Below are positions 2,877-39,692 of a stretch of 39,864 nt of DNA, piece by piece (position 1 is the stretch's first letter; each line of letters begins with the position of its first letter). The stretch comes from Candidatus Hydrogenedentota bacterium (GTDB taxonomy: Bacteria > Hydrogenedentota > Hydrogenedentia > Hydrogenedentales > SLHB01), in assembly GCA_019695095.1 (NCBI GenBank), contig JAIBAQ010000037.1:1-39864 (forward strand), in the 5' to 3' direction. A program made the translations under genes and the position numbers. The notes under the pieces were generated by a model that did not search any database, was not told where the DNA came from, and worked only from the letters and a program-made list of their open reading frames with translations.

Positions 2877-2905
2877 CGGTTGACGAAAAAAGCGCAAGGG
2901 GTGAC

Positions 2906-3996: not shown

Positions 3997-4138
3997 GTGC
4001 GACTCTCGCGGAATCCGAGCCGTGAAGTCCACGCGATGGAGTATATTCGCGTGTGAAGTGCCGAGCAGCCGGTGAGAAGCGCGGGCTGGTACGGTGGACG
4101 GTTCCGGGGTAGAGGGGACGTTCCTTCGTAGGCGGCAG

Positions 4139-4990: not shown

Positions 4991-4991
4991 C

Positions 4992-6458
4992 ATGTCGGGC
5001 CTGGGCGGGGTAAACCCGTTCACGGTGTCCGTGAACCCTGTCGGCCCGCAGGGGCCAGCCTTTCGCGTGGGACAAGTGCTTGAGGGCGTTGTCCAAAACA
5101 CGGGAAAAGAGCTTCTACTCTTGGTGAGTGGCCGGTCTGTGGCGTTACCCCCCAATGCGCCGTTTGCCGGCGGGCAGACGGTAAGCGCGGAAGTACTACG
5201 AACGTCTCCATCGTTGCAGTTGCGGATTTCGCCGCCCGTTTCTCAAATCCCATCTGAAGTGATCACTTCGAACTCGACGGTTTCGCTTGCATTAGCTCCG
5301 CGCTTTTCAGCGTCAAGCGTTGGGGCAAACGTGGCACAAGTCCTGAATGGCGTAATTCAGCAGACGCCGCAGGGGCCCGTATTCCAGGCTGGGCAAACGA
5401 CCATCCCTTTGGCTTCGGTTCCGGACAATCTTGTCGGAACGGCGTTGTCAGCACGTTTTGTGGAGACGGGGCAGGGTTCGCGCTTGCTTGTGTGGCAAAC
5501 CGAGGCGAGTGCGACAAGTGCGCCAACGACGGGGCGATCATTGCCGGAAGTTTTGGGTCGTATCTTCCAAGTCTTCGGCCAATCGGGACTGGCCGAGAGG
5601 GCGGCAAGTTTGATTCCGCGGGCTTTGCCGCCGGGAGAAGCCGCTATAAGGCTAGTTGCGTCACTGTTTCTGGAGCGGGGAGTTGGAGCGGAACTCGTCG
5701 AGCGACTGGTTACTTTGGTCAAACAGGGCGCGGCTTCCGGCGTTGTCAGCGACGATTTGCAGAAGAGACTTTTATCGCTTCTGACACGGACAGCGGGCAG
5801 TGAATCCAAGGAATTGCTGGCCGCCTTGAGGATTGCGGCTCAGACTTCTTCGCGTTCGCCAGAAGCGGCGTTGGCGCGGGCGTTCGCGCAATCGGAAGGA
5901 CTCTCGGCAACTTTGGCGGACGATCTGCGCAGCGCAATCCATCAGTTGAGGACGAGTGAACCGTTCCGTGCGTTTCTCGAGAAGACAGGCCAGATGCAGG
6001 AGTTCAACACGACCTCATCCAGTCTTATCGAGCGAATCACGGCAAATCAGCTTCAGAATCTGCGTGGTCTGGAGACGTCGTACCTGTATTTCGAGCCTGC
6101 CTTCGTGCCGGGAAGCGGCCTAAGTAGCGCGCATATCCATGCGTTCGGCGACGGTTCGGGAAAGCAGTCGTTTCCCAGCGAGAATTCCACGGTGGTTTTG
6201 GATCTGTCGACGACACGGCTTGGCGACTTGTGGATCACGCTGTCGGCCGTTCAAGGAGCCTGTTCCTGTGTGTTCAGAACACGTGAACCGCTGGTCGCAG
6301 TGCTGATAGACGAACACGCCCCCGAGCTGGAGAAGCTGCTTTCTGACACGGCCAACTTTACATACACGCAGGTGAGGGCAGTGGTGTGGAATAATGATCG
6401 ACTCAGTGCTGCGATCGATCTATTCCGCCCTTTGGAAGGAATCGACACAGAAGCATGA
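4992..6458 (+). CDS. fliK: Flagellar hook-length control protein, FliK-like
   Basis: This 488-residue protein is rich in Ala, Ser, Gln and Thr through its first 350 residues, as usual for FliK molecular rulers. The C-terminal 120 residues contain LGDLWITLSAVQGACSCVFR, REPLVAVLIDEHAPELEKLL and a final beta strand, TYTQVRAVVW. This matches the FliK C-terminal (Flg_hook) domain, which contacts FlhB to switch export specificity. A repeated GQVLEGVVQ / AQVLNGVIQQTPQGPVFQAG pattern near the N-terminus suggests two copies of a small beta unit (about 27-100 and 115-180). The immediately following gene encodes an FlhB C-terminal paralogue, which fits this function. The family assignment relies on the C-terminus and context, since FliK is poorly conserved. 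Confidence 0.75.
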   Translation: MSGLGGVNPFTVSVNPVGPQGPAFRVGQVLEGVVQNTGKELLLLVSGRSVALPPNAPFAGGQTVSAEVLRTSPSLQLRISPPVSQIPSEVITSNSTVSLALAPRFSASSVGANVAQVLNGVIQQTPQGPVFQAGQTTIPLASVPDNLVGTALSARFVETGQGSRLLVWQTEASATSAPTTGRSLPEVLGRIFQVFGQSGLAERAASLIPRALPPGEAAIRLVASLFLERGVGAELVERLVTLVKQGAASGVVSDDLQKRLLSLLTRTAGSESKELLAALRIAAQTSSRSPEAALARAFAQSEGLSATLADDLRSAIHQLRTSEPFRAFLEKTGQMQEFNTTSSSLIERITANQLQNLRGLETSYLYFEPAFVPGSGLSSAHIHAFGDGSGKQSFPSENSTVVLDLSTTRLGDLWITLSAVQGACSCVFRTREPLVAVLIDEHAPELEKLLSDTANFTYTQVRAVVWNNDRLSAAIDLFRPLEGIDTEA

Positions 6459-24332: not shown

Positions 24333-24360
24333 ATTGAAGAGGCAATGGTGCGGGTAGGAC

Positions 24361-24460
24361 GGACTAACACGGACGGGCACCGACTAACACAGACGGGCAC
24401 GGACTAACACAGACGGGCACGGACTAACACAGACGGGCATGGACTAACACAGACGGGCAT
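24361..24460. repeat. Five 20-bp tandem repeats
   Basis: Five exact-length units of GGACTAACACAGACGGGCAY stand head to tail; units 1 and 2 carry single changes, and unit ends alternate C or T. A sixth start, GGACTGGTGC, decays. There are no spacers, so it is not CRISPR. It lies between the terminator and the end of the minus-strand MFS gene. The stretch 24035-24513 (about 480 bases) otherwise holds only the small ORF, the terminator and the heptads. Confidence 0.9.
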
Positions 24461-24513
24461 GGACTGGTGCGGACCAGCGTAGAGCGCCAGCGGGAGCTTC
24501 TGAAACGACCGGA

Positions 24514-25897: not shown

Positions 25898-26917
25898 CTA
25901 CACGGCTTCCAGAGGCTTTTCCCATGCCTCGAACACTGCCGCAATATTCTCAAATGGGTCATTGACGCCCCATTCGCATTGGGCGATGACGCCGCCTTGA
26001 CCGTCGTCGAGTGCGCGGCGGACGCGGCGGACGGCGTTGCGGACATCGTCGGACGTGCCGAACGGCATGATGCGTTGCCGGCAGATTTCTCCCCAGAAGG
26101 TGATCTTTCCTTTGAACGTCTTGCCTAGTTCTTCGATGTCCATGCAGAACAACTGGCTGTTGATTGCATCCACACCAATTTCGATCAAGTCGGGAATGAT
26201 GGCGCGAATATGGCCGTCGGAATGCATAAACACGTATTTGCCGGAGCTTTTGATGATCTCGCAATACTCGCGGTACAACGGCTTGAATAGCTCGCGCCAT
26301 AGGTCGGGATCGATGAGCAGATTGCTTTGCGCGCCCCAGTCGTCCATGAAACTCACGGCGTCGACTTTGGTGTTGGCCCACATCTCCAGTTCGCGAATGT
26401 TGAAATCGTGAATCATATTTCGCAACCGGAAGAACTCGTCGGTTTGCATGAGCACGTCGGCAAGCATGTTTTCGGTGCCGCGCAGAAACTGCATGCGTTC
26501 GAACGGGCGCACGTGGGTGCCGGCGCGCATGAACTTGTCGGTGGATTGGCAGTAGGCGTTGGTTGCCGCGAGATCGACTCCTTCCAGCAATTCCCACGGC
26601 GGGGTGTAACCGTCAAGCGCCGACCAATCCGCGAGCGGGGGATTCTTCACTTCGCCGGAAACACCGACTTCGCCGACGGTCCATTCGCAACCCCATTCGT
26701 CGGTGTAGGTGCCAACAACGCCTTCCGTGCCTTTCTGGCGGAGTGATTTGCCATAGCGGAAGAGTGGCGCGCCGATATCCGAAGGATACAGCTCGTACAT
26801 GCGTTTAAGTTCATTGGCTCGATTCAGGCGCACGCCGGGAAGTGTCCAGAGATCTCTGGGCACACGGTCCGGACGGTCTGATTCAAGTGCCTTGACGACA
26901 CGTTCGCGCGAAGTCAT
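25898..26917 (-). CDS. UroD-fold methyltransferase-like protein 1
   Basis: This 339-residue protein is of the uroporphyrinogen decarboxylase superfamily. It starts MTSRERVVKALESDRPDRVP, the standard opening of this methyltransferase branch, and has the late SSGKYVFMHSDGHIRAIIPD strand. In MtaA-type enzymes the zinc ligands are H-x-C plus a later C. Here the first part reads H232-S-D234 with Asp instead of Cys, while a later Cys is kept in IAQCEWGVNDP (C314). Metal binding is therefore uncertain. The porphyrin-binding residues of true HemE are not apparent. It is divergent from the plus-strand methyl-transfer operon and shares a 137-bp intergenic region with it. GGGGA precedes the ATG. The methyl donor or acceptor is unknown. 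Confidence 0.85.
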   Translation of the reverse strand: MTSRERVVKALESDRPDRVPRDLWTLPGVRLNRANELKRMYELYPSDIGAPLFRYGKSLRQKGTEGVVGTYTDEWGCEWTVGEVGVSGEVKNPPLADWSALDGYTPPWELLEGVDLAATNAYCQSTDKFMRAGTHVRPFERMQFLRGTENMLADVLMQTDEFFRLRNMIHDFNIRELEMWANTKVDAVSFMDDWGAQSNLLIDPDLWRELFKPLYREYCEIIKSSGKYVFMHSDGHIRAIIPDLIEIGVDAINSQLFCMDIEELGKTFKGKITFWGEICRQRIMPFGTSDDVRNAVRRVRRALDDGQGGVIAQCEWGVNDPFENIAAVFEAWEKPLEAV

Positions 26918-26946
26918 GATATTTCCCCATTACGGTTCGAGGCCAA

Positions 26947-26971
26947 CATGGTGCGCGTCGGGGTCACCATG
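26947..26971. promoter_or_regulatory. Inverted repeat in the divergent methyltransferase promoter region
   Basis: CATGGTG (26947-26953) and CACCATG (26965-26971) form a perfect 7-bp inverted repeat with 11 bases between. It lies 30 bases upstream of the minus-strand UroD start and 84 bases before the plus-strand one, a good place for an operator controlling both. TACAAT at 27004-27009 could be a -10 box for the plus strand, but its -35 is poor. Confidence 0.45.
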
Positions 26972-27054
26972 CAGCTAATTCACAAGCGGGCCGACGCTGT
27001 AATTACAATTCGAGGTGGGAGTATAGCATCTCGCAGGGGGAGGATGTTAACGGC

Positions 27055-28230
27055 ATGGATTACGCCGAGATACAGACGATGATTTCAAGGCGGGGGGACG
27101 ACGCAAAGGTTGCTCTGGCAACGACTAACGGTCTTACCTTGCGGGAGCGATTCAGGCGAACGATGTCATTTCAGGAGGTCGACAGACGGCCCAATTTTGA
27201 GTTTGGTTATTGGGACCGAACGCTTCAGGTCTGGCATCGGCAGGGTTTGCCTGAGCATGTCGTGGATGAAGCATCGGCATACGAGTACTTCGGCATCGAG
27301 AGTTGGCACATGATCGGGGCGCATTCGAATCCGGTGCCTCGTTTTGAGGCGTCGGTATACGAAGTGCGGGGCGATTATTACGTGTTTCGAGATCAACTGG
27401 GGTGCATCGCGCAGATAAACAAGTTCGGAGATCAGTCGATCCCTCACTTCATCGATTTTCCGGTGAAAGATCGTGCTTCATGGATGCCCTACCTGGAGTT
27501 GCTCGAGGTGGACCGGCCTGAGCGGTGGACTGGTTTTGAAGAGTCGATTGCCACTGCAAAGGAGACGGACAAGCCGGTGGGTGTTTATGGGGGGAGCCTA
27601 CTTGGTGTACCGCGCAATTTGATGGGGTTTGAGCGAATCGCCACGATGGCATACGAGGATCCAGATTTCCTGGCGCACATCGTCGATGCATTTGGCTCGT
27701 GTGCGGTGGGCGTGCTTGAGAGGGTGTTGTCCCGCGTTGAAGTCGATTTCTGCATGGGTTGGGAAGACATTTGCTTCAACATGGGGCCGATTGTACCGCC
27801 GGAGTTTATGCGAGCGGTGGCGGGTCCGTGGTACCGGCGAATCGCGGATTTGCTCGCCGCGCACGGTTGCACGGTGTATACGTCGGATACGGATGGCAAC
27901 ATTCTCCCGATCATCGACACCTTTCTGGACAACGGGCTCACCACGATGTTCCCCGTTGAGGTGCATGCGGGGACGGATCCATGTATGATACGGGCCAAGT
28001 ACGGTAAGCGTGTGAAGCTTTGGGGGGGAGTCTGCAAGCTTAAGCTCGCGGAATCGCGTGCGGCAATCGATGCGGAGTTGGATCGTTTGAGGCCGTGTGT
28101 CGAAGAAGGGGGATTCATTCCGGGCGTCGATCATCGCGTGCCAGCCGATGTTCCGCTCGCGAATTACCTCTACTATCTTGATCGCAAACGCGAAGTGCTC
28201 GGGGTCGGAGGGGAGCCCAAATACGCATGA
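27055..28230 (+). CDS. UroD-fold methyltransferase-like protein 2
   Basis: This 391-residue protein has an N-terminal extension of about 25 residues before the usual TLRERFRRTMSFQEVDRRPN start. It has the fold's MGWEDICFNMGPIVPPEFMR segment and a later YTSDTDGNILPIIDTF. At the position of the MtaA zinc motif H-x-C it has T-S-D, and no later Cys is in place (GGFIPGVDHRVPADVP). The standard zinc site thus seems lost, and its role in methyl transfer is uncertain. GGGGGAGGA at 27035-27043 is a strong ribosome binding site. Its stop overlaps the next gene's ATG (28227-28230), giving tight coupling with UroD-fold protein 3. Neither true HemE nor MtaA is a safe name. Confidence 0.83.
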   Translation: MDYAEIQTMISRRGDDAKVALATTNGLTLRERFRRTMSFQEVDRRPNFEFGYWDRTLQVWHRQGLPEHVVDEASAYEYFGIESWHMIGAHSNPVPRFEASVYEVRGDYYVFRDQLGCIAQINKFGDQSIPHFIDFPVKDRASWMPYLELLEVDRPERWTGFEESIATAKETDKPVGVYGGSLLGVPRNLMGFERIATMAYEDPDFLAHIVDAFGSCAVGVLERVLSRVEVDFCMGWEDICFNMGPIVPPEFMRAVAGPWYRRIADLLAAHGCTVYTSDTDGNILPIIDTFLDNGLTTMFPVEVHAGTDPCMIRAKYGKRVKLWGGVCKLKLAESRAAIDAELDRLRPCVEEGGFIPGVDHRVPADVPLANYLYYLDRKREVLGVGGEPKYA

Positions 28231-29303
28231 TGACCAGTGTAGAGCGTATACACAATATTCTGAAGCGCAAACCTGTCGATCGAATCGGCGTTTTCGAGCA
28301 TTTCTGGGGCGACACCCACAAGAAATGGAGTGCCGAGGGGCGCATCAACGCGATGGAATCGATGGAGGATCACTTCGGATTTGACCTGCAACTGTGCTGG
28401 CCCTTCAATGCAGTCGCCAAACTCGATTTCGAACCCGAGCTCGTTGAGGAGACCGAAGAAACCATACTTGTGCGCGACGGTAACGGGGCGGTATTGCGGC
28501 GGCACAAGCTGCATGATACGACTCCGGAGCACGTCGACTTCTTAGTGAAGGAGCGGGCCGGTTGGGAAGAGCACATCAAGCCGTATCTGAAAGCGGATCG
28601 CGCGCGTATCGATTTCGCGGCGTACCGCCGCATCAAGCAGGAAGCGGCCGCGCGCAACCGGTTCTTCGCGTGGTGCGGATGCAATGTATTCGAGTTGATG
28701 CATCCCGTTTGCGGGCACGAGTACATGCTGATGGGCATGGCCGTTGACCCTGAATGGATCTGCGAGATGGTCGACACGTATGCGCAGCTCACCATCGACT
28801 TGATGGAGATTTTGTTTGCGGAAGAAGGCGCTCCCGACGGAGTGTGGTTCTACGAGGACATGGGATTCAAGGGGCGGCCCTTCTTCTCGTGCGACATGTA
28901 CAAAGAGATTGTGCAGCCGGGGCACTGCAAAACCATCGACTATGCGAAGTCGAGGAATTTGCCGGTGGTAATGCATTCATGTGGTTATGTGGCTCCGCTG
29001 GTACCGGGGATGATTGAAGCAGGCATCGACTGCCTCCAAGTGATTGAAGTCAAAGCCGGTATGGATCTGCTGGAGCTTCATCGCCAGTATGGCGACCGCC
29101 TGTCGTTTATGGGGGGGATTGACGTCAGAGTCCTGTATTCGAATGACAAGGAGCAGATAGCGCGCGAGTTGGAGGCCAAAGTGCCTGCCGTGAAAAGCGG
29201 GTACGGGTATGTGCTTCACTCCGACCATTCCATACCGGATCAGGTAGAGTATGACAGTTACCGGTTCTTTGTTGACCGGGGACTTGAGCTAGGGCAATAT
29301 TAA
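28227..29303 (+). CDS. UroD-fold methyltransferase-like protein 3, MtaA-like
   Basis: This 358-residue protein overlaps the previous gene by 4 bases. Its core carries FWGDTHKKW near the start, DGVWFYEDMGFKGRPFFSC and, near 248-255, VVMHSCGYVAPLV. H250-S-C252 matches the zinc H-x-C motif of MtaA/MtbA-type methylcobamide:CoM methyltransferases. The third ligand of MtaA, a Cys near the C-terminus, is replaced by a histidine-containing LHSDHSIP segment (H331/H334). It is the best candidate in this locus for an enzyme that takes the methyl group from the corrinoid protein encoded next. The acceptor could be CoM-like, tetrahydrofolate or another thiol; the sequence does not tell. ATG 28230 is an alternative start. 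Confidence 0.85.
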   Translation: MMTSVERIHNILKRKPVDRIGVFEHFWGDTHKKWSAEGRINAMESMEDHFGFDLQLCWPFNAVAKLDFEPELVEETEETILVRDGNGAVLRRHKLHDTTPEHVDFLVKERAGWEEHIKPYLKADRARIDFAAYRRIKQEAAARNRFFAWCGCNVFELMHPVCGHEYMLMGMAVDPEWICEMVDTYAQLTIDLMEILFAEEGAPDGVWFYEDMGFKGRPFFSCDMYKEIVQPGHCKTIDYAKSRNLPVVMHSCGYVAPLVPGMIEAGIDCLQVIEVKAGMDLLELHRQYGDRLSFMGGIDVRVLYSNDKEQIARELEAKVPAVKSGYGYVLHSDHSIPDQVEYDSYRFFVDRGLELGQY

Positions 29304-29346
29304 GTGTGTTTGTCTCTGGGAGAAAGGAGACAGGAAGGGGAGCCTT

Positions 29347-30015
29347 ATGTCTGAAATCATCGAACGAATTGCGCAATGCATTGAACGGGGGAAGGTCAAC
29401 GCCGCGTCGCCGTATCCGCCGGATCTCAAAGGTCAAGACGGTGCGGACGAACTAACGGCCGCCGCGCTTCAGATGGGGATTCCCCCGAGTGATGTGTTGG
29501 GCCAGGGATTGGTTATCGGCATGAACGCCATCGGTCGCAAGTTTAGTGAGAACAAGGTGTTTGTTCCGGATTTGCTGATGGCATCCAAGGCGATGCAGGC
29601 GGCCATGAAGCACTTGAAGCCTTATTTTGAATCGGGGCAAGCGCAGCATCGCGGTACGTTCATAGTCGGTACAGTTCAGGGCGACTTGCACGATATCGGC
29701 AAGAACCTTGTCAGCATGGTCATGGAAGGCGGCGGCTGGGAAGTCATTGACCTCGGGGTCGACGTCAATGCCGACAAGTTCTTGAATGCGCTGAAGGACC
29801 ATCCGAAAGCGGTAGTGGGCCTGAGCGCGTTGCTCACGACGACGATGGTTAATATGGAGAAGACGGTTGCCGCGATTCGGCAGCAGAGCCCGGATACGGT
29901 CGTCATCGTCGGCGGTGCTCCGCTTACGTCGGAATTTGCGAAGAAGATTGGCGCGAACGCCTATTTCCCCGATCCGCAGGGCGCACTCGATTATCTGACC
30001 GGCGTGGCTGCGTAG
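29347..30015 (+). CDS. mtaC: Corrinoid protein, MtaC/MtbC-like
   Basis: This 222-residue protein has an N-terminal helical cap domain (about 1-95, with VFVPDLLMASKAMQAAMKHL) and a Rossmann-like B12-binding domain. The DxHxxG motif is present as GDLHDIGKN: D113, H115 (lower axial cobalt ligand) and G118. Further motifs are VIDLGVDV, VGLSALLTTTMVNM and VIVGGAPLTSEFAKKIGANA. It carries methyl-cobalamin between the substrate methyltransferase (MtaB-type, 30984) and a UroD-fold acceptor enzyme. GGAGACAGGAAGGGGAG lies just before the ATG. Dimethylamine (MtbC) or trimethylamine (MttC) proteins are similar, but the MtaB gene in the same operon favours MtaC. Confidence 0.92.
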   Translation: MSEIIERIAQCIERGKVNAASPYPPDLKGQDGADELTAAALQMGIPPSDVLGQGLVIGMNAIGRKFSENKVFVPDLLMASKAMQAAMKHLKPYFESGQAQHRGTFIVGTVQGDLHDIGKNLVSMVMEGGGWEVIDLGVDVNADKFLNALKDHPKAVVGLSALLTTTMVNMEKTVAAIRQQSPDTVVIVGGAPLTSEFAKKIGANAYFPDPQGALDYLTGVAA

Positions 30016-30021
30016 TGCGTG

Positions 30022-30047
30022 GCGCGGGCAGGCTCCGCCTGCCGCGC
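30022..30047. promoter_or_regulatory. GC hairpin between mtaC and the next gene
   Basis: GCGCGGGCAGGC and GCCTGCCGCGC enclose TCC; the stem is about 11 bp with one bulge. It lies 7 bases after the mtaC stop and 14 bases before the next likely start. It could tune the ratio of corrinoid protein to downstream enzymes by stabilising the upstream mRNA. There is no T run. Confidence 0.5.
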
Positions 30048-30060
30048 AGAAGGGACAGTC

Positions 30061-30963
30061 GTGTCTATGAAGACATTGCGCGAAGAGATTGCCTCCGGGA
30101 AAGTACTGGTATCCGATGGCGGATGGGGAAGCTTTCTCGTGGCTGCCGGTCTGCAACCAGGGGAATGTCCCGAGTTGTGGAACGTCTCGCATCCCGATGT
30201 GGTGCGTGACATTGCGAAGCAATATGCCGATGCCGGCGCCGACATGGTGATGACCAACAGTTTTGGCGGGACACGAATAAAGCTGGAAGCCTACGGGCTT
30301 GCCGATCGTGTCGCTGAATTGAACGAGGCGGCCGCCCGGTTGTCGCGCGAGGTTGCGGGCGACTCTGTGCACGTATTGGCATCAGTCGGGCCTACCGGGA
30401 AGTTCTTGATGATGGGCGATGTGACCGAGGACGAGCTCTACGCGCAATACAGCGAGCAGGCCATCGCGCTGGAACGCGGCGGCGCCGATGCATGTAGTGT
30501 CGAAACGATGTCCGCGTTGGATGAAGCGGGCATCGCGGTGCGCGCGGTGCGCGAGAATACCAAACTCGAGGTAGTGGCATCGTTCACGTTCACCACGCAA
30601 ACCGATACCGGGTATCGAACCATGATGGGTGTGGGCGCGGCGGACATGGCAGCCGCCATGCTCGAAGCAGGCGCTCACATTCTTGGCATCAATTGTACGT
30701 TGGGACCGCGCGAGATGGTCAGCGTGGCGCGCGAGCTTCGCGCTGCGGCGCCTCAGACGCCCATTCTCGTTCATCCCAACGCGGGCAGTCCTATTCGCGG
30801 CGACGACGGTTCGGTGTCTTATCCAGAGACGCCGGAGTCGATGGCCGCGTGCGTACCGGATTTGATAAATGCTGGGGTCAACATCATAGGGGGGTGTTGC
30901 GGCACGGGCCCGGCTCATATTCGCGCTATTGCGCAAGCGGTGGCAGCGGCTAGAGGCGCTTAG
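30061..30963 (+). CDS. Homocysteine S-methyltransferase family protein
   Basis: I chose GTG 30061, since GAAGGGA lies 5 bases before it; ATG 30067 is also possible. The barrel has SDGGWGSFLVAAGLQPGECP, MTNSFGGTRIKLEAYGLADR and ASVGPTGKFL. The zinc-type cysteines are in GINCTLGPREM and NIIGGCCGTGPAHIRAIAQA. This is the Hcy-binding domain of MetH and BHMT, but about 300 residues only, so no folate or cobalamin domain is included. Inside a corrinoid methyl-transfer operon it may take the methyl group from the neighbouring corrinoid protein to homocysteine or another thiol, or release methyl groups to folate. This is inference. It could also be an unrelated methionine-pathway enzyme caught in the operon. 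Confidence 0.87.
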   Translation: MSMKTLREEIASGKVLVSDGGWGSFLVAAGLQPGECPELWNVSHPDVVRDIAKQYADAGADMVMTNSFGGTRIKLEAYGLADRVAELNEAAARLSREVAGDSVHVLASVGPTGKFLMMGDVTEDELYAQYSEQAIALERGGADACSVETMSALDEAGIAVRAVRENTKLEVVASFTFTTQTDTGYRTMMGVGAADMAAAMLEAGAHILGINCTLGPREMVSVARELRAAAPQTPILVHPNAGSPIRGDDGSVSYPETPESMAACVPDLINAGVNIIGGCCGTGPAHIRAIAQAVAAARGA

Positions 30964-30983
30964 GTCGCCTGGAAGGTTCCGTG

Positions 30984-32354
30984 ATGCGTTTCTTTTCCTC
31001 TTTGGCAGTGCCGGAGGCACGTGCCCTTGTATTTGGTGTTTGTCCCAATCCTGTTCGCGTCACTCCACACATTACCGTGGGCAGCGGGGAGACGATCCCC
31101 GAGGTCAACTACATACTTCCTCACGGCAGCGAGGTAAGCGCGTCTACCATAGACGATGTCGTGACCTTGTATGCGCGAATGGCCGAAGGCGTGTTGGAGC
31201 GCGCCTACGATCTCGGCATTGCCAAGCTGATCATCGAAATCGAGCTCGTGTTTGAGTTGACCCTCAATCCATCGTGGGGCGCGCGTGTGATCCGCGTTAC
31301 CCGTGAAGCCATGGATCGGTACGAGGCCAAGGGCGTCCATTCGGCGCTTCGGACGACGGTTGCCGATATACGCGACCGAGTCAGGCCGCCACGTTTGCGC
31401 ACGAGCGACGAGACGCGACTTGTGTTTGAGTGTTTTGAGGCGTGCGCGGCAGACTCTGACATTCTGTCCATCGAATCAACCGGAGGTAAGGAAGTCTCCG
31501 ACGATGCTTTGCTGAATTGCGACATCGGCGGTGTGTTGTTCGCGATGGGTACGCTGGGCTCGAACGACATGGAGTTCTTGTGGACAAAGATCTGCAAGAT
31601 TGCCGATACGTACGGCAAGGTCGCGGGGGGCGATGCAGCCTGCGGTTTTGCGAATACGGCCATGCAGCTTGCTCGCAAACGCATGCTGCCGACTGTGTTT
31701 GCGGCGATGGTGCGCGCAGTCGGGGCGGCGCGATCGCTGGTCGCAATCGAATGTGGCGCGAAGGGACCCGACAAGGACTGCGCGTACGAAGGTCCGGTGC
31801 TGAAAGCCATCGCGGGGATTCCCATCGCGATGGAAGGCAAGTCCGCGGCGTGCGCGCATTCGAGTCCAGTCGGCAATGTGGCGATGGCTTGCTGCGACAC
31901 GTGGAGCAACGAGTCCGTGCCGTTTGTGCAGCTATTCGGTGGGTTCTCACCAGAGGTATCGCTTGAGCAGCTATGGTACGACTGCAAGTTGATGAACGAG
32001 GCCACGCGATCCGGCGACGCGGTGCGCGTACGCGATCTGCTCACGTTGTCGGACGTGCGGACGAGTGCCGAAGCGTTGGTGCTTGCACCAGAGTCGTGTA
32101 TGCGCATTGCGAAAGCGATCATTTCGACACCGGATCGTTTGCAGCGGGCGCATCGGGCAGCGAAAGAGGCGCTGGCGATTATTGACGAGGCGGCGGGCGA
32201 GGGGCGTTTGTCGATCCCCGAAGTCGAGCAAAATTGGATAGGGATGATTCGAGCGGGCATGGATGAATTTGAGTCGCTTGGCGACGGGGCGGCCGCGCAT
32301 TATGCCAAGCAGTACGCACACCTCTTCGTGCCTTCCGAATACGGTCTAACGTAA
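30984..32354 (+). CDS. mtaB: Methanol:corrinoid methyltransferase, MtaB type
   Basis: This 456-residue protein has a length close to Methanosarcina MtaB and is clearly homologous. Shared motifs are TIPEVNYILP, NPSWGARVIR, CFEACAADSDILSIESTGGK, NDMEFLW, GGDAACGFANTAMQ, GPDKDCAYEG, EGKSAACAHSSPVGN and CCDTWSNESV. The zinc ligands Glu164, Cys220 and Cys269 of the M. barkeri enzyme correspond here to E164, C220 and C266, all kept. It breaks the C-O bond of methanol and loads the methyl group onto the MtaC corrinoid. ATG 30984 follows GGAAGG by 7 bases; GTG 30981 is adjacent. Bacterial relatives occur in acetogens such as Sporomusa and Moorella. It is the last gene of the operon, 20 bases after the homocysteine-type gene. 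A related alcohol or ether substrate is not excluded. Confidence 0.92.
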   Translation: MRFFSSLAVPEARALVFGVCPNPVRVTPHITVGSGETIPEVNYILPHGSEVSASTIDDVVTLYARMAEGVLERAYDLGIAKLIIEIELVFELTLNPSWGARVIRVTREAMDRYEAKGVHSALRTTVADIRDRVRPPRLRTSDETRLVFECFEACAADSDILSIESTGGKEVSDDALLNCDIGGVLFAMGTLGSNDMEFLWTKICKIADTYGKVAGGDAACGFANTAMQLARKRMLPTVFAAMVRAVGAARSLVAIECGAKGPDKDCAYEGPVLKAIAGIPIAMEGKSAACAHSSPVGNVAMACCDTWSNESVPFVQLFGGFSPEVSLEQLWYDCKLMNEATRSGDAVRVRDLLTLSDVRTSAEALVLAPESCMRIAKAIISTPDRLQRAHRAAKEALAIIDEAAGEGRLSIPEVEQNWIGMIRAGMDEFESLGDGAAAHYAKQYAHLFVPSEYGLT

Positions 32355-32430
32355 AGCTGGGAGCAAACCAGGAATCACGGGGGTATGCGGTCCTCCGTGC
32401 ACCCCAGCGGAACCAGAGCATCGTATCGCC

Positions 32431-33189
32431 ATGCAAACATACAACCTTGGCACGTGGCTCTTTGCACCCATTGCGGTAGGAATCATCGTCAGCGCATCAG
32501 CCGTCGTGCTCCAGCGTCGCGGAGAAGAGGCGCAGCAGAAGATGCCGGCCTATTCCCGGCACCTCAGGCTCCTCTTCTGGTCGGTCGTCTTTTTCTATTT
32601 GTTGGCCATTCTGGGCGGGCTTTCGTATGGGTTCATGACGACCGATGCAGCGCAAGAAGCGGGTGCGGCAAACCTGGACTCAGGCCAGGTAATTGCCTTG
32701 GAGACCATTTTCGGCCCGTTCAGGAATGCTCTGTGCGAAGGCTCAGCTACGACTGTCGCATCCGTCGCTGGAATTGTCTTCCTCATCAATGTATTGGGAA
32801 TCCTCATATCTTACGTCCTGCCGGGGTTCTTCTTGGTGCCGGGTTTCCTTCTGCTCCTCTATGTGGGATGGACTCAAGGAAGGAGCCTCGCAGAGTGGGA
32901 TGCATCCACGTTGGGTTCCATGCTGGGTTTCAGTTGGATGCTTGCTCTCGAGTCTTTTTCGTATGTACTCGGTACGGTTGCCGGTATGAATTTCTCATTG
33001 GCCCTTTTGGTCCGGTCATGGACGGGCAGAGATACGCGCGGGGCCGCCCTGCGCGCCGCCGGTTGTACCGCTTTGAAACTCTTTGGGCTTATTCTCGCCA
33101 TTCTGTTCATTCAAGCCTTGAGTGAAACCCTCTACGTGCGGCAAGTCTTGCTGCACGGAGGCAGCGGAATTCCGTTGATGCCTTACTGA
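32431..33189 (+). CDS. Multi-pass membrane protein, unknown
   Basis: This 252-residue protein has about five to six membrane helices (about 6-27, 47-70, 105-130, 132-150, 163-190 and 215-240) with short loops. The helix with GFSWMLALESFSYVLGTVAG carries an acidic residue followed by small residues. This is weakly reminiscent of SpoIIM/DUF95-type membrane proteins, but I would not name it so. No transport ATPase or catalytic motif is visible. The start ATG at 32431 lacks a strong SD. It follows mtaB by 76 bases and may be transcribed with it. The 168-base gap after it carries a TAGAAT hexamer (33284-33289) without a good -35, so the beta-helix gene's promoter is not clear. Confidence 0.7.
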   Translation: MQTYNLGTWLFAPIAVGIIVSASAVVLQRRGEEAQQKMPAYSRHLRLLFWSVVFFYLLAILGGLSYGFMTTDAAQEAGAANLDSGQVIALETIFGPFRNALCEGSATTVASVAGIVFLINVLGILISYVLPGFFLVPGFLLLLYVGWTQGRSLAEWDASTLGSMLGFSWMLALESFSYVLGTVAGMNFSLALLVRSWTGRDTRGAALRAAGCTALKLFGLILAILFIQALSETLYVRQVLLHGGSGIPLMPY

Positions 33190-33357
33190 GTTCACGCATT
33201 TCCTGAAGGCTCTGCGGCGCAATCAGCCGTGCGATGCGAAGCGTTTCCGGCAGCAACTCCCATATAGCACAGGCAAGATCCGCTAGAATGCAGACTGCTA
33301 CTGCCTAGGCAAACTCAGGTCGTGTCGATCCTGTGTTCCTGAAAGGAGACTCGCGTC

Positions 33358-35301
33358 GTGTTAAGAATTGTTGCTCGATACTGTTGGGTACCGGTCGCGT
33401 GCATCGGTTTTGCCGTGATATTGCACGCCACAGGATGCGCAAGTGCCCCGCATGGGAAGAATCTCAAGGAGGGTTCACACTCGTTGTTCGTTGCCCCTGG
33501 GGGCAACGACGCGATCAGCGGTGAACGACGCGCCCCATTTGCCACGCTTCACGCCGCACTCGACTCCACACGCAAACTAGGCACGGAAAGGCCGCGCCGC
33601 ATCATGCTGCTTCCCGGTGAGTACTTCCTGGACGCGCCTCTAACGCTGAACGCCGCGGATAGCGGGCTCACCATCGAGGCTTCCAAGCGCGGCGACGTGA
33701 CGCTGTACGGTGGAAAGCCAATCGCAGGATGGGAACGCGACGGCGATCGCTTCTGGAGCGCAAAGGTATCCGATGCGCAGCGCGACGCCCGAATGCTTGT
33801 CGTGAATGGCCGCTTCTGCAAACGCGCGCGCCTGCCTGAGTCCGGATACTTCGAGCATCTTACGGTCTTTGACGTGCCGTGGATGAGTACAACCGGCGGC
33901 GGATGGAAACGCAAACCCACCCACGAAGAACTGACCACGCTCACATACAACCCCGCTGATTTGGGGGAGTGGCTGGACGTACGAAGCGCTGAGTTGACGG
34001 TCTACCACATGTGGGACGAATCGGTAGTCGGTGTTGCGGCCAATGACGCGCAAGCTCATACGCTGACCTTCAGCAATGAAGCCGGGCATCCTGCCGGGGC
34101 ATTCGGGGTGAAAAAGTATGTTGTCTGGAATGTGCGAGAGGGCATGACCCAACCGGGTCAATGGTACCTTGACCGTGCCGCGGGAAGAGTCGTGTATTGG
34201 CCGCTTCCTGGCGAGGATATGGAAAGCGCGGCGGCGATTCTGCCGACGATGGAATCCATTGTCGTTCTTGACTCCAAGAATGGTCCGGTGAAGAACGTGA
34301 CCTTGCGCGGGTTAAGACTCTCCGTGACCAATACACCACTCAAAGCGGGAGGATTCGGGGCATCCGCTTTTGCGGGCGCAATTCAGGTTGGCAAGTCAGA
34401 GAACTGCCGCATCGAAGATGTGGGCATAGCGAACGTGAACGGCCAGGGAATCCAGACGTGGGGGAGTGATGGGCTTCTCATTGCGCGGTGTCACGTGCAC
34501 GATACGGGTGCGGGAGGCATTCGCGCAGGCGGAGGTGTCGAAGTAAGCGACTGCCATATTCATCACGTGGGACGTACCTATCCCAGCGGGATTGCGCTTT
34601 CCGGCAACGAGGCGGAAGGGAAGAGCGTGCGTTTCCTGCACAACCTGATTCACGATACGACGTACAGTGGGATCGTGTGCGGCGGTGACAATCACGTGAT
34701 CGAAGGGAACCACATCCATCACGTGATGCAGGAACTACATGACGGGGCGGGCATCTACGTTGGTTTTGGCAAGGGCATGCGTTTGGCGGGCAATTGGATT
34801 CACGACATCGAATCTGAAGGTGGTTATGGCGCGTCCGCGTATTACCTGGACGAACAGGCCGAGAACTGCGTCGTAGAGGGCAATCTTTCGACGGATTGCG
34901 CGTGGCCGTCGCACAATCACATGGCGAAGAACAACACGATTCGCAACAATGTGTTCATCTGTAGCGGTGACGCGAAGTTAACATTTCCTCGTTCTTCGGG
35001 ATTTACTTTTGAGCGCAATGTCGTTGTTGTGAAAGGGCGACTCACCGTAACGAATCCCAACGCGATAGTATCGATGCCGAACAACGTTTTCTATAGTGAA
35101 AAAGGAAAGGTGGAGGGGATAGCGCTTGACCAGTACAAAGCGACGGATGCCACCGATTTGACGTTACGTGACGGGTCGGTGTGCGCGGACCCGAAGCTGG
35201 CCTCGTGCAAGAAAGGTCGGCCAGTGTTTTCAGATGCGCACTTGTTGCGTGCTCTGGGTATCAAGCCGGTTGATGTGCGCGATGTGGGACCGAGGCGCTG
35301 A
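33358..35301 (+). CDS. Secreted right-handed beta-helix lipoprotein
   Basis: This 647-residue protein starts at GTG 33358, preceded by GAAAGGAG. The N-terminus has a lipoprotein signal with lipobox ATGC (residue about 27). A DUF1565-like opening follows (LFVAPGGNDAISGERRAPFA, TLHAALDSTRKL), then IMLLPGEYFLDAPLTLN, a pattern of pectate-lyase-type helices. The central part (about 320-560) shows beta-helix coils such as IEDVGIANVNGQGIQTWGSD, ARCHVHDTGAGGIRAGGG and NHVIEGNHIHHVMQ. Such proteins usually bind or cleave acidic or sulfated polysaccharides or act as glycosidases. No decisive catalytic triad is recognised. The many His and Asp in the coils could be metal sites. It lies before a secreted FAD oxidoreductase, 90 bases apart. 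Confidence 0.8.
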   Translation: MLRIVARYCWVPVACIGFAVILHATGCASAPHGKNLKEGSHSLFVAPGGNDAISGERRAPFATLHAALDSTRKLGTERPRRIMLLPGEYFLDAPLTLNAADSGLTIEASKRGDVTLYGGKPIAGWERDGDRFWSAKVSDAQRDARMLVVNGRFCKRARLPESGYFEHLTVFDVPWMSTTGGGWKRKPTHEELTTLTYNPADLGEWLDVRSAELTVYHMWDESVVGVAANDAQAHTLTFSNEAGHPAGAFGVKKYVVWNVREGMTQPGQWYLDRAAGRVVYWPLPGEDMESAAAILPTMESIVVLDSKNGPVKNVTLRGLRLSVTNTPLKAGGFGASAFAGAIQVGKSENCRIEDVGIANVNGQGIQTWGSDGLLIARCHVHDTGAGGIRAGGGVEVSDCHIHHVGRTYPSGIALSGNEAEGKSVRFLHNLIHDTTYSGIVCGGDNHVIEGNHIHHVMQELHDGAGIYVGFGKGMRLAGNWIHDIESEGGYGASAYYLDEQAENCVVEGNLSTDCAWPSHNHMAKNNTIRNNVFICSGDAKLTFPRSSGFTFERNVVVVKGRLTVTNPNAIVSMPNNVFYSEKGKVEGIALDQYKATDATDLTLRDGSVCADPKLASCKKGRPVFSDAHLLRALGIKPVDVRDVGPRR

Positions 35302-35406
35302 ACCGGGCTGTAGTCGAGGTATGCGTCAGTCTTAGTTTGCGCCAAACGCGGTAGATGAGCCCCGGTGCCACTGATAAGCAATCTGTGAGTTTTGGAGGAG
35401 TCGGTC

Positions 35407-37335
35407 GTGCGTAATTCACTGTCAGTGCTTGTGCTCATTACCACTGTCGCATTTGTGAATGGACAGGCAGCCGCGATTGAATCGCGCTCGTGCGACGTAA
35501 TCGTAGTCGGGGCGACTCCAGGTGGAATTGGAGCGGCGGTAGCGGCGGCGCGACTGGGGCACAGCGTTGCGCTTTTCGAGTACTACGGGCATGTGGGGGG
35601 TATGTCGGCGAGCGGACTCGGGAAGTCGGACGTCGAAACGGCGGGGGCCATTGGCGGTCTTTGGGATGAATTCGTGGGCCGCGTGCTCGCGTATTATACG
35701 AAGACCTATGGCGCGGATTCAGAGCAGGTGAAGGCATGCCGTGGCGGCTATTTTTATGAGCCTTCTGTTGCGGAGCGAATCTTCAACGAGATGCTGGCCG
35801 AGCAACCCAAGATACACGTATTCCTGCGGCATCGGTTGGATAGCGCGGCACGAAGCGGGAAGCGCGTGAAATCAGTGCGTGTGACCAATCGCGAAACTGG
35901 GGAACAAGTCGAGTTCTCAGGAAAGGTTTTCATCGACGCGACGTACGAAGGCGATCTGGCGGCGTTTGCGGGAGCCGAGTATCGTCTAGGGCGCGAAAGC
36001 CGCGACGAATTCGACGAGGCGCACGCAGGTGTGATTTACATGGATCACACGACTCGCGCCCTGCTTCCCGGAACTACGGGTCTTGGCGACGACCGTCTGG
36101 TCGCGTACACCTACCGGCTGTGTTTTAGCTCCGATCCAGCTAACCGGGTCTATCCGGAAGTGCCGCCCGATTACGACCGCAAACGTTACTTGAATTATCT
36201 GCTCGACCTGAGGCTGGGCCGCATCAAATCGGCACTGCTTGCGTTGTCCATCGCTCCAATTCCGAATCAGAAGTATGACGTGAACATGAAGCCTTGGCCA
36301 TTGGGCTTCCCGTTTGCGGAGGAAAACACGGGATATCCGGAGGCATCGTGGGCGGAACGCGAAGCGATTATGCAGCGCATTCGCAATATCACCCTTGGAC
36401 TCGTGTACTTTTTGCAGAACGACCCTGAAGTTCCCGAAGCTGACCGTGAGGCGGCGCGTCAGTATGGGTTCGCAAAAGACGAGTTTACGGATAACGGTAG
36501 TTTCCCGTTTCAGTTCTATGTGCGCGAGGCACGGCGCGTTGTGGGTGAATATACGATCAGTGAGCGCGACCTGACCTATGCACCCGAGTCCTTTCGCGCG
36601 CCGGTCCATGCCGATAGCATTTGCGCGGGTGAGTTTCCCATCGATTCGTTTCCCACGCGCAAGTACGAGAGTGGTCACGAAGACGCGCTTGAAGGATACA
36701 TCCTCATGCTGAATCGGTACACGCGTCCCTATCAGATTCCCTATCGCGCGATAGTCCCGAAGAAGGTCGATGGCCTATTGGCGCCCGTTCCCGCATCCGC
36801 GACGCACATTGCTTTTTCGTCGGTTCGACTTGAGCCGACTTGGATGTGCATGGGGCAGGCGGCGGGAGTAGCCGCGCATCTCGCAATCAAACAGCGCGTG
36901 CAGCCGCGCCACATTCCCGTGCAGGAACTTCAGGATATCCTGTTGTCGCAAGGCCAGGTGATTACATATTTCGACGACTTACCGAAAGACCACCCTGACT
37001 TTGCCGCGTTTCAACGTCTGGGAACGAGGGGGTTCTTCGATAGTTATCAGGCGAACCCAGAGGGTTCATTTCGCTATAGCGACGCCGACGTATGGGCGCG
37101 GCGTGTGCTTAAACTTGCAGGTGGCGATCCTTCAATCATGCTTCCTGAAGAACCCGGCGAATGCCTCTCGAATCCCGATCTCATGAGAATGATGCGAGTC
37201 ATTTGCGATGAATTGCGAATCGGTGACGACGAAGTAGATGCGCTTTTGAACCTCATACCCGACTCGCAGGGTACGGCCACACGGAGAGTCGCTTGCGTGG
37301 TTTTCGATGGAGTACTTCGCGCGAAGAAGAACTGA
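35407..37335 (+). CDS. Secreted FAD-dependent oxidoreductase
   Basis: I chose GTG 35407, since GGAGGAG ends 6 bases before it; it gives 642 residues. A signal peptide (about 1-22) is followed by CDVIVVGATPGGIGAAVAAA, an FAD dinucleotide-binding GxxxGG variant. Then come LFEYYGHVGGMSASGLG, typical of the FAD_oxidored (PF12831) family, and VFIDATYEGDLAAFAGAEYR. A late motif, HIAFSSVRLEPTWMCMGQAA, closes the FAD site. The family includes putative sugar or xanthan-related dehydrogenases in polysaccharide-degrading PVC-type bacteria; no substrate is established here. As it is exported, FAD must be inserted before or after transport. It likely works with the beta-helix lipoprotein encoded 105 bases upstream, though this is context inference. 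Confidence 0.84.
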   Translation: MRNSLSVLVLITTVAFVNGQAAAIESRSCDVIVVGATPGGIGAAVAAARLGHSVALFEYYGHVGGMSASGLGKSDVETAGAIGGLWDEFVGRVLAYYTKTYGADSEQVKACRGGYFYEPSVAERIFNEMLAEQPKIHVFLRHRLDSAARSGKRVKSVRVTNRETGEQVEFSGKVFIDATYEGDLAAFAGAEYRLGRESRDEFDEAHAGVIYMDHTTRALLPGTTGLGDDRLVAYTYRLCFSSDPANRVYPEVPPDYDRKRYLNYLLDLRLGRIKSALLALSIAPIPNQKYDVNMKPWPLGFPFAEENTGYPEASWAEREAIMQRIRNITLGLVYFLQNDPEVPEADREAARQYGFAKDEFTDNGSFPFQFYVREARRVVGEYTISERDLTYAPESFRAPVHADSICAGEFPIDSFPTRKYESGHEDALEGYILMLNRYTRPYQIPYRAIVPKKVDGLLAPVPASATHIAFSSVRLEPTWMCMGQAAGVAAHLAIKQRVQPRHIPVQELQDILLSQGQVITYFDDLPKDHPDFAAFQRLGTRGFFDSYQANPEGSFRYSDADVWARRVLKLAGGDPSIMLPEEPGECLSNPDLMRMMRVICDELRIGDDEVDALLNLIPDSQGTATRRVACVVFDGVLRAKKN

Positions 37336-37444: not shown

Positions 37445-38374
37445 ATGTCGGAAAACACGCCGGTAGTCTCGGTGGTGGTTCCCATATTTAATGAGGAACC
37501 GAATATTCGTCCTCTTATCGAGCGTCTCACGGCAGCTTTAGAATCGAGTGGGCGAAGCTACGAGATTCTTGCCGTCGACGATGGCAGTTCGGATCGTAGT
37601 GTTGAGATTCTCAGGGAATTTCGCGCCCGCGATTCACGGCTGCGCATTATCCGGTTGAGCCGGAACTTTGGTCAGAGCCCGGCCTTGTTTGCGGGCTTTG
37701 CCAATGTCCGAGGCCAGATTGTGGCTACAATCGACGCCGATCTGCAGAATCCTCCTGAAGAGTTGCCGAAACTGATCGCCAAGATTGAAGAGGGCTATGA
37801 CTTTGTTATCGGGTGGCGTCAACGGAGGCAGGATTCAGTCCTGCGCAAATTGCCGTCGCTGCTTCTGAATGCGTTGGTGCGTCGCCTGACGAAAGCCGGG
37901 TTCCGAGACATCGGGTGTTCATTGAAGGTGTTTCGACGTGAAGTAACTGACCGTTTGGCCCAATTCAATCACCGTTCCCGCTACCTGCCGGCTGAAGTAG
38001 CCTGGCTTGGCGTACGGACGTGCGAGGTTGAAGTGGCGCATAGCGAGCGCGCGGCAGGCACAAGCAAGTATGGCGTACTTCGGCTCTTCCGTACCGCGTT
38101 CGACCTTGTTACGAGCATTACGTCCGCGCCACTGCAGTTCATAGGGTTGGTGGGCTGGTTGTTTGCCATAGGCGGATTTGCGCTGGGGGCCCGGGTGGTC
38201 TACATCCGTATCGTGGACGGTGACATTAACCAAATGGGATCGGTGATAGCCGTGTTGCTGTTCCTGCAAGGCGTCCACCTGATAAGTATGGGCCTGATTT
38301 GCGAGTACATCAGCCGAATCTATATTGAAGTCCAGAACCGCCCTTATTACATCATCAAGGATATCATCGAGTGA
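37445..38374 (+). CDS. GT2 glycosyltransferase, polyprenyl-phosphate type
   Basis: This 309-residue protein has a GT-A catalytic domain (about 1-225) and two C-terminal membrane helices (about 232-256 and 268-295), as in the GtrB/ArnC/DPM1-like branch. Motifs are VSVVVPIFNEEPNIRPLIER, VDDGSSDRS, DADLQNPPEELP (DxD-like) and DIGCSLKVFRREV. It would transfer a nucleotide sugar to undecaprenyl phosphate on the inner face of the membrane for lipid A, O-antigen or glycoprotein decoration. The ATG at 37445 follows a perfect AAAAGGAGGA site. TTGACT (37381) and TACCTT (37405) could be a promoter with 18-bp spacing, not strong. The next gene begins 34 bases after it, so they probably form a pair. Confidence 0.9.
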   Translation: MSENTPVVSVVVPIFNEEPNIRPLIERLTAALESSGRSYEILAVDDGSSDRSVEILREFRARDSRLRIIRLSRNFGQSPALFAGFANVRGQIVATIDADLQNPPEELPKLIAKIEEGYDFVIGWRQRRQDSVLRKLPSLLLNALVRRLTKAGFRDIGCSLKVFRREVTDRLAQFNHRSRYLPAEVAWLGVRTCEVEVAHSERAAGTSKYGVLRLFRTAFDLVTSITSAPLQFIGLVGWLFAIGGFALGARVVYIRIVDGDINQMGSVIAVLLFLQGVHLISMGLICEYISRIYIEVQNRPYYIIKDIIE

Positions 38375-38408: not shown

Positions 38409-39692
38409 ATGAACGTGTTTGTCTTTCCTACCCGCAACGAACCCGGTCTGGAAGCGGTACAGGCCCTCTCGAAGAGCAACAAGATCACCTTGTTCGGCGG
38501 CAGCAGTTACGAGAAGGTTCACGATCCGGCGCGCCACCTGCTCACGAACTATGTGTTATGCCCCGGGTATGACGAGCCGGACTTCGTGCCGCGCTTCCAG
38601 TCTATCCTCCGTGAGCATGCCATCGATATCGTACTTCCTGCGTGGGACCGGCTCGTTGCCGTCTTTTCCCAGTGGACGATGGAAGGTGTAACGTTTGTGA
38701 CGCCGCGTGCCGAGATTGCCACGATGCTGCTGTCCAAGCGTAAAACCTATGAGCGGCTCAAGGGTAGTGTGCCGGTTCCACGCGTCTATAAGCCAGAGGA
38801 TGCCTCCTTGCCAGTCTTTGCCAAGCCTGACGTGGCGAGCGGCTCCGTCGGCGGGATGCACGTGACGACGGAATCGCAACTGGCGGCAGCGGTGGAGAAG
38901 GGTTTGCTTCTAAGCGAATACTTGCCGGGGGATGAATTCACGGTGGATTGTATCAGTGACCGCCAAGGAGTGCTGTTATTTGCGAACCAGCGCGCGCGCA
39001 GCCGGATTGGTCAGGGCATTTCTTTGGGGACGTGCAGTGTGCATGACCCGCGCGTTGCCATGCATGTGGAGGCAATAGCGGCAACATTGCGGATTGAAGG
39101 TCCATGGTTCGCCCAGTTCAAATGCAACGAAGCTGGCGAGCCTGTTCTAATGGAGATCAACCCGAGGCTCGGAGGAAGCAGCGCCCAAACGCGACTGAGC
39201 GGAGTCAATATTCCCTTGATATCCGTCTTTCTGTTTGCCGGGTATCCGGTGCGGATCCCGCGATTGCGTTCGGACGTATTGTTGAATCGGAGTATGCGAA
39301 ATTACACCGATGCGGAGGCTTTTGACTGGGTGATTTGGGACTGGGACGATACACTTATTCGAAGAGACGGGCGTCCCGATCCGGATGCGATGGGGTGTCT
39401 ATACGATCTGAGGAACCGGGGCATCCGACAGGCCCTGTTTACGCGTAATCCAGAAGCAGAGTCCCTTATGAATGTCCACATGGTTCCGCGGATGTTCGAG
39501 GAAATCCGCGTCACCGACGACAAAGTGGGGGCATTGAAGGAATTCATGGCGCGCCGAAGCATTGACGCATCGCGTTTGGTCATGGTGAATGATTCCTTTC
39601 AGGAATTATTTGAGATTCAGGATAGCCTTCCACAGGTGCGGACGGTGACACCGGATGCGCTGGAAACGCTGGGGAGGGCGCCGCTGACGTGA
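38409..39692 (+). CDS. ATP-grasp / HAD fusion protein
   Basis: I chose ATG 38409 (427 residues); the open frame extends upstream but overlaps the GT2 gene. The first part (about 1-300) is a carbamoyl-phosphate-synthase-like ATP-grasp: FAKPDVASGSVGGM (ATP lysine region), LLLSEYLPGDEFTVDCISDR and LMEINPRLGGSSAQTRLSG (Mg-binding E and N). The second part (about 305-427) is a small HAD domain with WDWDDTLI (D311-W-D313-D314-T315) and later TRNPEA and LVMVNDSFQE. ATP-grasp enzymes ligate a carboxylate to an amine or thiol, while HAD domains are usually phosphatases. The fusion could activate a substrate and remove a phosphate, but the substrates are unknown. It follows the GT2 gene, so cell-envelope or glycan modification is a guess. 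Confidence 0.85.
   Translation: MNVFVFPTRNEPGLEAVQALSKSNKITLFGGSSYEKVHDPARHLLTNYVLCPGYDEPDFVPRFQSILREHAIDIVLPAWDRLVAVFSQWTMEGVTFVTPRAEIATMLLSKRKTYERLKGSVPVPRVYKPEDASLPVFAKPDVASGSVGGMHVTTESQLAAAVEKGLLLSEYLPGDEFTVDCISDRQGVLLFANQRARSRIGQGISLGTCSVHDPRVAMHVEAIAATLRIEGPWFAQFKCNEAGEPVLMEINPRLGGSSAQTRLSGVNIPLISVFLFAGYPVRIPRLRSDVLLNRSMRNYTDAEAFDWVIWDWDDTLIRRDGRPDPDAMGCLYDLRNRGIRQALFTRNPEAESLMNVHMVPRMFEEIRVTDDKVGALKEFMARRSIDASRLVMVNDSFQELFEIQDSLPQVRTVTPDALETLGRAPLT

Follow-up and report, generated by a model that had tools for sequence, protein, structure and literature searches.

A conserved ATP-grasp-HAD fusion protein of Hydrogenedentota and viral contigs and its amino-sugar gene context

At the far end of a 39,864-nucleotide stretch of Candidatus Hydrogenedentota DNA (the whole of which is referred to here as the window) lies a gene that joins an ATP-grasp module to a HAD phosphatase module, directly behind a glycosyltransferase gene. 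The question raised by this locus is what a ligase and a phosphatase would do together on one polypeptide, and on which substrate they would act. The original prediction, made from the sequence alone, had suggested a little-described activity that modifies the envelope or a metabolite. The features of the locus are as follows:

37445..38374, + strand: GT2 glycosyltransferase, ArnC/PgfS-like, with two C-terminal hydrophobic segments (Pfam/NCBIfam, neighbourhood)
38409..39692, + strand: ATP-grasp-HAD fusion protein, 427 aa (ORF, Pfam, family alignment, predicted structure)
38409..39308, + strand: ATP-grasp domain, approximately aa 1-300, with K110, K139, E170, Q236, E249 and N251 (Pfam, structure, alignment)
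39327..39680, + strand: capless HAD domain, aa 307-424, with D311, D313, D314, T315, T345, K372 and D395 (motifs, predicted structure, alignment)

The fusion protein and its neighbour

The 427-aa protein is encoded by one uninterrupted frame on the forward strand (38409-39692). An alternative, longer frame from a TTG at 38325 would enter the GT2 gene, and alignment with relatives favours the ATG at 38409 as the start. AlphaFold2, supplied with an alignment of 35 family rows, returned a confident predicted model of the fusion protein (pLDDT 93.6, pTM 0.90). The observation of an ATP-grasp module followed by a HAD module in a single chain holds, being borne out by the ORF, Pfam, motifs and predicted structure. 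A chance join or a gene error was also considered and was ruled out, as the fusion recurs in other genomes and in viral contigs.

Two Pfam families matched the ATP-grasp half, ATPgrasp_Ter (PF15632; E 1.7e-19, 70.3 bits versus a cut-off of 29.1) and ATP-grasp_3 (E 2.1e-11). Of five NCBIfam models for PRK12767 ("carbamoyl phosphate synthase-like") proteins, the best reached 82.7 bits, under a curated cut-off of 390, and a profile of PRK12767 proteins matched this half with E 4.4e-26. Superposition of the model identified 2pn1 as the nearest solved structure (Z 30.3, rmsd 2.0, 272 aligned). ATP-grasp enzymes in general activate a carboxylate with ATP and couple it to an amine, and the window protein has both the fold and the residues (K139, E249 and N251) by which an ATP-grasp carboxylate-amine ligase is recognized at the fold level; K110, K139, E170, Q236 and E249 are invariant in 39/39 rows carrying a HAD of the window type. 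Judged from its sequence, the ATP-grasp half is probably a ligase that couples an acid with an amine. The position of N251, in the ExN motif (codon 39159-39161), is occupied by Ala in 31 of these 39 rows, for which reason the metal site of the family's ATP-grasp may differ from the usual one; Asn is present in 7/39, including the window, and Ser in 1/39. The Asn is retained across the window's clade.

The top Pfam match raises the alternative that the protein makes no glycan but a metabolite able to diffuse, either a peptide or a nucleoside-like compound of the Ter type, as ATPgrasp_Ter is named after the Ter operons and HAD phosphoesterases have been reported alongside Ter systems (PMC7824862). 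We regard this alternative as improbable, given that TerD is absent from the window's genome (0 matches in G000, which is 95% complete) and that sugar genes surround the family. Membership in a Ter system was itself rejected on the absence of TerD, although the cut-off of PF15632 was passed.

The final 120 residues of the protein contain DWDDT (311-315), T345, K372 and NDS (394-396). All DxDDT residues claimed for the HAD module are therefore in place (D311-W-D-D-T), and the domain has all four HAD elements, namely DxDxT, the motif II T/S, the motif III Lys and the motif IV acidic residue. The spacing of approximately 30 residues between motifs I and II and of 27 residues between motif II and the Lys leaves no space for a large cap domain. 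A Pfam scan of the whole 427-aa protein gave no HAD match, and the HAD domain alone reached PF00702 at E 0.03 (15.2 bits, under the cut-off of 26.4); this family was matched by 6 of 17 relatives at E up to 1, the best at 2.8e-7. A sequence search for solved structures with the fused HAD alone found nothing close (best E 0.021). Modeled by itself, the HAD half gave a pLDDT of 93.4, and its model superposed on BF1531 (3slr; Z 15.0, rmsd 3.0, 124 aligned), MDP-1 (1u7o; Z 14.9) and a ribofuranosyl transferase (7shg; Z 14.1), three scores that are tied (within 1 Z). Going by its motifs, the HAD half probably removes phosphate.

The upstream gene had been called a polyprenyl-phosphate sugar transferase, and a GT2 of that type indeed adjoins, ending 34 bases before the ATG of the fusion gene; its best models are NCBIfam ArnC (NF007986; E 1.6e-84, 283.6 bits, under the curated cut-off of 529) and PgfS (E 4.5e-54, likewise under its curated cut-off).

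Elsewhere in the window, positions 25901-32354 encode three URO-D family proteins, a B12-binding protein, a homocysteine S-methyltransferase family protein and MtaB, resembling a corrinoid methyl-transfer cluster. A link between the fusion gene and these upstream methyl-transfer genes (MtaB and others) gained no support, as the four window ORFs at 30981-37335 cluster with no genes of the other loci. Positions 905-6455 hold genes for flagellar switch proteins (FliM, FliN-like) and for a sigma-70 family factor, along with one gene whose product gave a weak FliK-type match, and a tandem repeat with a 20-base unit (5.3 copies, 95% match) lies at 24359-24465. The window had no Rfam match at gathering cut-offs.

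Distribution and conservation of the family

A profile of 20 relatives detected the fusion in 19 of 68 Hydrogenedentota genomes, at 20 loci. The same profile run over 386 genomes recovered those 19 and three more that do not belong to the phylum; among these three, the match covers both domains in G158 alone. Relatives 65% identical to the fusion protein are encoded on two Candidatus Hydrogenedentota contigs, and named members outside the phylum come from Stenotrophomonas daejeonensis and Cupriavidus metallidurans (two records). An ATP-grasp relative is encoded at 36 viral-contig loci, with the window-type HAD fused to it in 18 distinct viral rows, one of them on a contig of 527 kb. The fusion is a genuine conserved family and not a one-off.

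The viral fusion loci comprise L068-L087, L091 and L102, on contigs of up to 527 kb. In a tree of 44 rows, from which L098 and L101 were left out, the window groups with five other Hydrogenedentota rows at a support of 92/95, which is below the tool's star. Cellular and viral rows are intermixed elsewhere in the tree, and its well-supported branches require at least two switches between cell and virus. The window protein had 0 matches in PHROGs and none at 1e-5 among annotated phages, where one viral relative gave one partial match; three of the 35 rows of set A3 match a single PHROG, which is labeled phosphoheptose isomerase. No printed description of the fusion appeared among the matches listed from open-licence PMC text, a result that does not exclude the existence of one, and as far as these searches show the fusion is little described.

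Conservation of the HAD residues was counted over the 39 rows with a window-type HAD out of 46 aligned, with L087 cut by a contig end; 11 viral ORFs (shorter than 330 aa, or copies) were left out of the 46-row alignment. D311 and D313 are present in 39/39 rows and D314 in 37/39, while residue 315 is T or C in 37/39 (30 T, 7 C), motif II is T or S in 37/39 and D395 is found in 36/39. Owing to a gap, the motif III Lys is aligned in 8/39 rows; a Lys anywhere within 28 residues ahead of motif IV is present in 37/39, a loose and weak count that takes in decayed rows too. Lack of conservation of the catalytic residues in homologues, which the original prediction had named as a finding that would speak against it, was not what we observed. 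They are kept in nearly all homologues, the exceptions being an Asn at the D395 position in the Cupriavidus protein and two proteins in which the HAD is decayed and the ATP-grasp residues are kept (L041:9498-10781 in G005 and L043:9024-10307 in G006). The Stenotrophomonas daejeonensis protein retains its HAD motifs apart from an Ala in place of S396.

Sugar genes around fused, split and solo forms

Neighboring genes were counted by tblastn with chosen queries around 23 cellular rows and 22 of the 36 viral loci. The viral loci omitted were L088-L090 and L092-L095 (another HAD), L097-L101 and L103 (no such fusion) and L096 (a copy of L079), and removal of L070, L080 and L081 as copies left 19 distinct viral rows. 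Gene tables of the relatives were obtained with a simple ORF caller, with starts and small genes uncertain. Of the 23 cellular rows, 11 have a gene for a DegT sugar aminotransferase no more than 5 kb away, in ten cases within 80 bases, and so do 11/19 distinct viral rows (14/22 with copies counted). The chance of a DegT gene falling within 5 kb of a point is approximately 2.4% (16 matches in 6.77 Mb), to be read with the fact that sugar genes cluster anyway and that DegT genes are common in general (14/14 control genomes). The viral DegT is often, among the matches listed, an ORF of approximately 215 aa that covers only part of the Pfam model, and methyltransferase genes often accompany it beside the viral fusions. 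In the remaining 12/23 cellular rows no DegT was found within 5 kb, a distance before which several of the contigs end. A methyltransferase is present within 5 kb in 11/23 cellular rows and a relative of the GT2 in 14/23.

Within the window's own clade, a GT2 relative precedes the fusion gene by 40 bases or less on the same strand at 7/7 loci, with 53-67% identity to the window's GT2 in the five loci compared. DegT is nearby at only 2/7 loci of this clade, those of the two closest relatives (G052 and G053), where the next gene, on the opposite strand, is an SDR-DegT fusion. In the clade's four remaining relatives no DegT appears up to 5 kb away, just 689 bases being available downstream in one, and the window itself ends 172 bases past the fusion gene. 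The window's own genome contains a 70-72% identical SDR-DegT gene that ends 9 bases short of the end of contig C305, and we infer that the ends of C305 and of the window's contig (C37) adjoin. The best NCBIfam model for the C305 protein is ArnB (405 bits, cut-off 631). At the G158 locus (L104), the fusion gene shares an overlap with a formyltransferase gene, for which ArnA scored best among NCBIfam models (78.7 bits, under a cut-off of 777). Five loci, L033, L034, L035 and L037 (family f3) and L104, are without DegT, methyltransferase and GT2 within the limits of their contigs; the neighbors are genes of the shikimate-kinase and PdxA families in L034 and a sugar-kinase gene in L037. Beside the G158 fusion, L104:660-3455 holds Ni_insertion, AIRC and PP-loop family genes, which presumably correspond to a LarB/LarC/LarE-like nickel-cofactor set.

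Taken together, the genomic context points to amino-sugar chemistry. The proposal of an envelope- or metabolite-modifying activity is supported, in a form that the DegT, ArnC-like GT2, methyltransferase and formyltransferase neighbors narrow to envelope-glycan (amino-sugar) modification.

Separate genes of unrelated context in close relatives had been named as a second adverse finding. Separate genes for the two domains do exist, yet they are adjacent and lie in sugar clusters in Palleronia (as annotated) and Ensifer (by eye). In Palleronia sp. THAF1, genes for an annotated formyltransferase, a solo ATP-grasp and a HAD are consecutive, with the HAD gene starting 4 bases before the end of the ATP-grasp gene, and the cluster also contains DegT, glycosyltransferases and an O-antigen ligase family protein. 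The ATP-grasp and HAD ORFs overlap in Ensifer and in G094, where the HAD is recognized by motif only. The Ensifer pair lies amid NeuC-, PIG-L-, NeuB- and NeuA-like genes, labels assigned by eye from opening residues, and Neu-type pathways include a known sugar phosphatase step. This arrangement would suit a reverse order of events, in which the HAD acts before the ligase, converting a sugar or acid phosphate to the free substrate (GmhB-type or Neu5Ac-9-phosphate-like), and the sole role of the fusion is to tie substrate supply to ligation. We consider such an order rather unlikely for the fused family: the Ensifer HAD is a separate 213-aa protein that matches the CTE7 model below cut-off, unlike the capless HAD of the fusion, and sequence alone does not tell which step comes first.

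A further group of viral proteins has the ATP-grasp fused to another HAD, which in the two proteins scanned, L092 and L095, is like the EcbF/BcbF capsule phosphatases (1e-9 and 1.5e-10, under cut-off). These other-HAD fusions are at L088, L090 and L092-L095; in L092-L095 the fusion is followed by a conserved gene of 588-590 aa (cluster v11) and, further on, by SDR-type genes. Approximately three kinds of HAD are thus paired with such an ATP-grasp, which argues that phosphate removal is part of the pathway.

Among viral loci, an ORF resembling a PIG-L-type deacetylase (by eye) lies immediately upstream of the ATP-grasp in L101 and L103, one small ORF upstream in L099 and two genes downstream in L097.

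The phylum also has 15 solo ATP-grasp loci (L133-L147), and a profile of the fused HAD found no convincing HAD nearby at any of the 15 (best E 0.38), so the HAD is not always needed. An SDR relative is adjacent at 13/15 of these loci, a methyltransferase relative is nearby at 4/15 and a GT2 is directly upstream at 7/15; six of these seven GT2 proteins are 48-55% identical to that of the window. GT2 and ATP-grasp thus occur as a pair more widely than the HAD fusion does. The six solo loci with such a similar GT2, together with the decay of the HAD in G005 and G006, would be expected if the HAD half were mainly structural or regulatory and ligation alone mattered. That reading appears very unlikely to us, as the catalytic residues of the HAD persist in nearly all other rows, both cellular and viral.

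A proposed capping reaction and known systems

The reading that we favor, at about even confidence, is that the protein serves as amidoligase and phosphatase, both in one chain, in the synthesis of an envelope glycan. The DegT aminotransferase would produce a nucleotide-linked amino sugar, and the ATP-grasp half would convert a carboxylate to an acyl phosphate and couple it to an amine, most likely that of the sugar. One ligation partner would bear a phosphate ester, as phosphoglycerate or a phospho-amino acid does, and removal of this phosphate by the HAD half would make the step one-way. The GT2 would then load the capped sugar onto undecaprenyl phosphate. Because the GT2 is ArnC-like and the DegT ArnB-like, an amide cap is suggested in place of the N-formylation of the ArnA/ArnB/ArnC pathway.

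In a broader and more tentative form, the family would represent a possible undescribed enzyme family, common to bacteria and to large viruses, the latter presumably phages. It would cap amino sugars with amides in one chain by ligating a phosphorylated partner and then dephosphorylating it, accompanied by its own sugar aminotransferase (often shortened in viruses) and methyltransferases, and viruses could use it to remodel host or virion glycans. Ligases for amide-linked glycan caps are, to our knowledge, mostly unassigned; the proposal would give such caps a defined two-step enzyme, and unusual amino-sugar lipids would then be expected in Hydrogenedentota (draft genomes here) and in large viral genomes.

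The two halves each have structural relatives. The Exiguobacterium "carbamoylphosphate synthase large subunit" (2pn1) and the PRK12767 proteins are like the ATP-grasp half, but the 2pn1 chain (331 aa) covers that half only, unlike the 427-aa fusion. BF1531 (3slr), MDP-1 (1u7o) and 7shg have the same fold as the HAD half at 17-20% identity, and 7shg is, going by its title, a HAD joined to a sugar transferase and not to an ATP-grasp. The Arn pathway shares the ArnC-like GT2, an ArnB-like aminotransferase in some relatives and an ArnA-like formyltransferase in one; it differs in that all of these matches are below curated cut-offs and in that the ATP-grasp-HAD protein would here replace or accompany formylation.

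A sugar cap associated with an ATP-grasp gene is described for the flagellin of Clostridioides difficile. The type B cap is built from taurine, alanine and glycine, and the glycan that bears them terminates in Fuc3N (PMC5207245); the ATP-grasp gene CDR20291_0245, in the same locus as an FdtB-like aminotransferase gene, is reported as required for the peptidylamido-sugar cap (PMC5207246). The likeness to the fusion is that of an ATP-grasp gene found with a sugar aminotransferase gene; a difference is that the excerpted description of CDR20291_0245 does not mention a fused HAD (PMC5207246). The closest chemical precedent is the Campylobacter jejuni capsule, where glucuronate is amidated by Cj1438C with serinol phosphate or ethanolamine phosphate, after which Cj1435 takes the phosphate off (PMC12409886). 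Here, likewise, an amide is formed with a phosphorylated partner and the phosphate is then removed during synthesis of an envelope polysaccharide (PMC12409886). Cj1438C and Cj1435 are separate proteins that act on an on-chain glucuronate acceptor, and they are likened to the fusion by their chemistry, not by sequence. The succession of an amidoligase and a phosphatase in surface-glycan synthesis is therefore already known, and it is the fusion of the two in one chain, its spread among viruses and its tie to a sugar aminotransferase that are the interesting parts.
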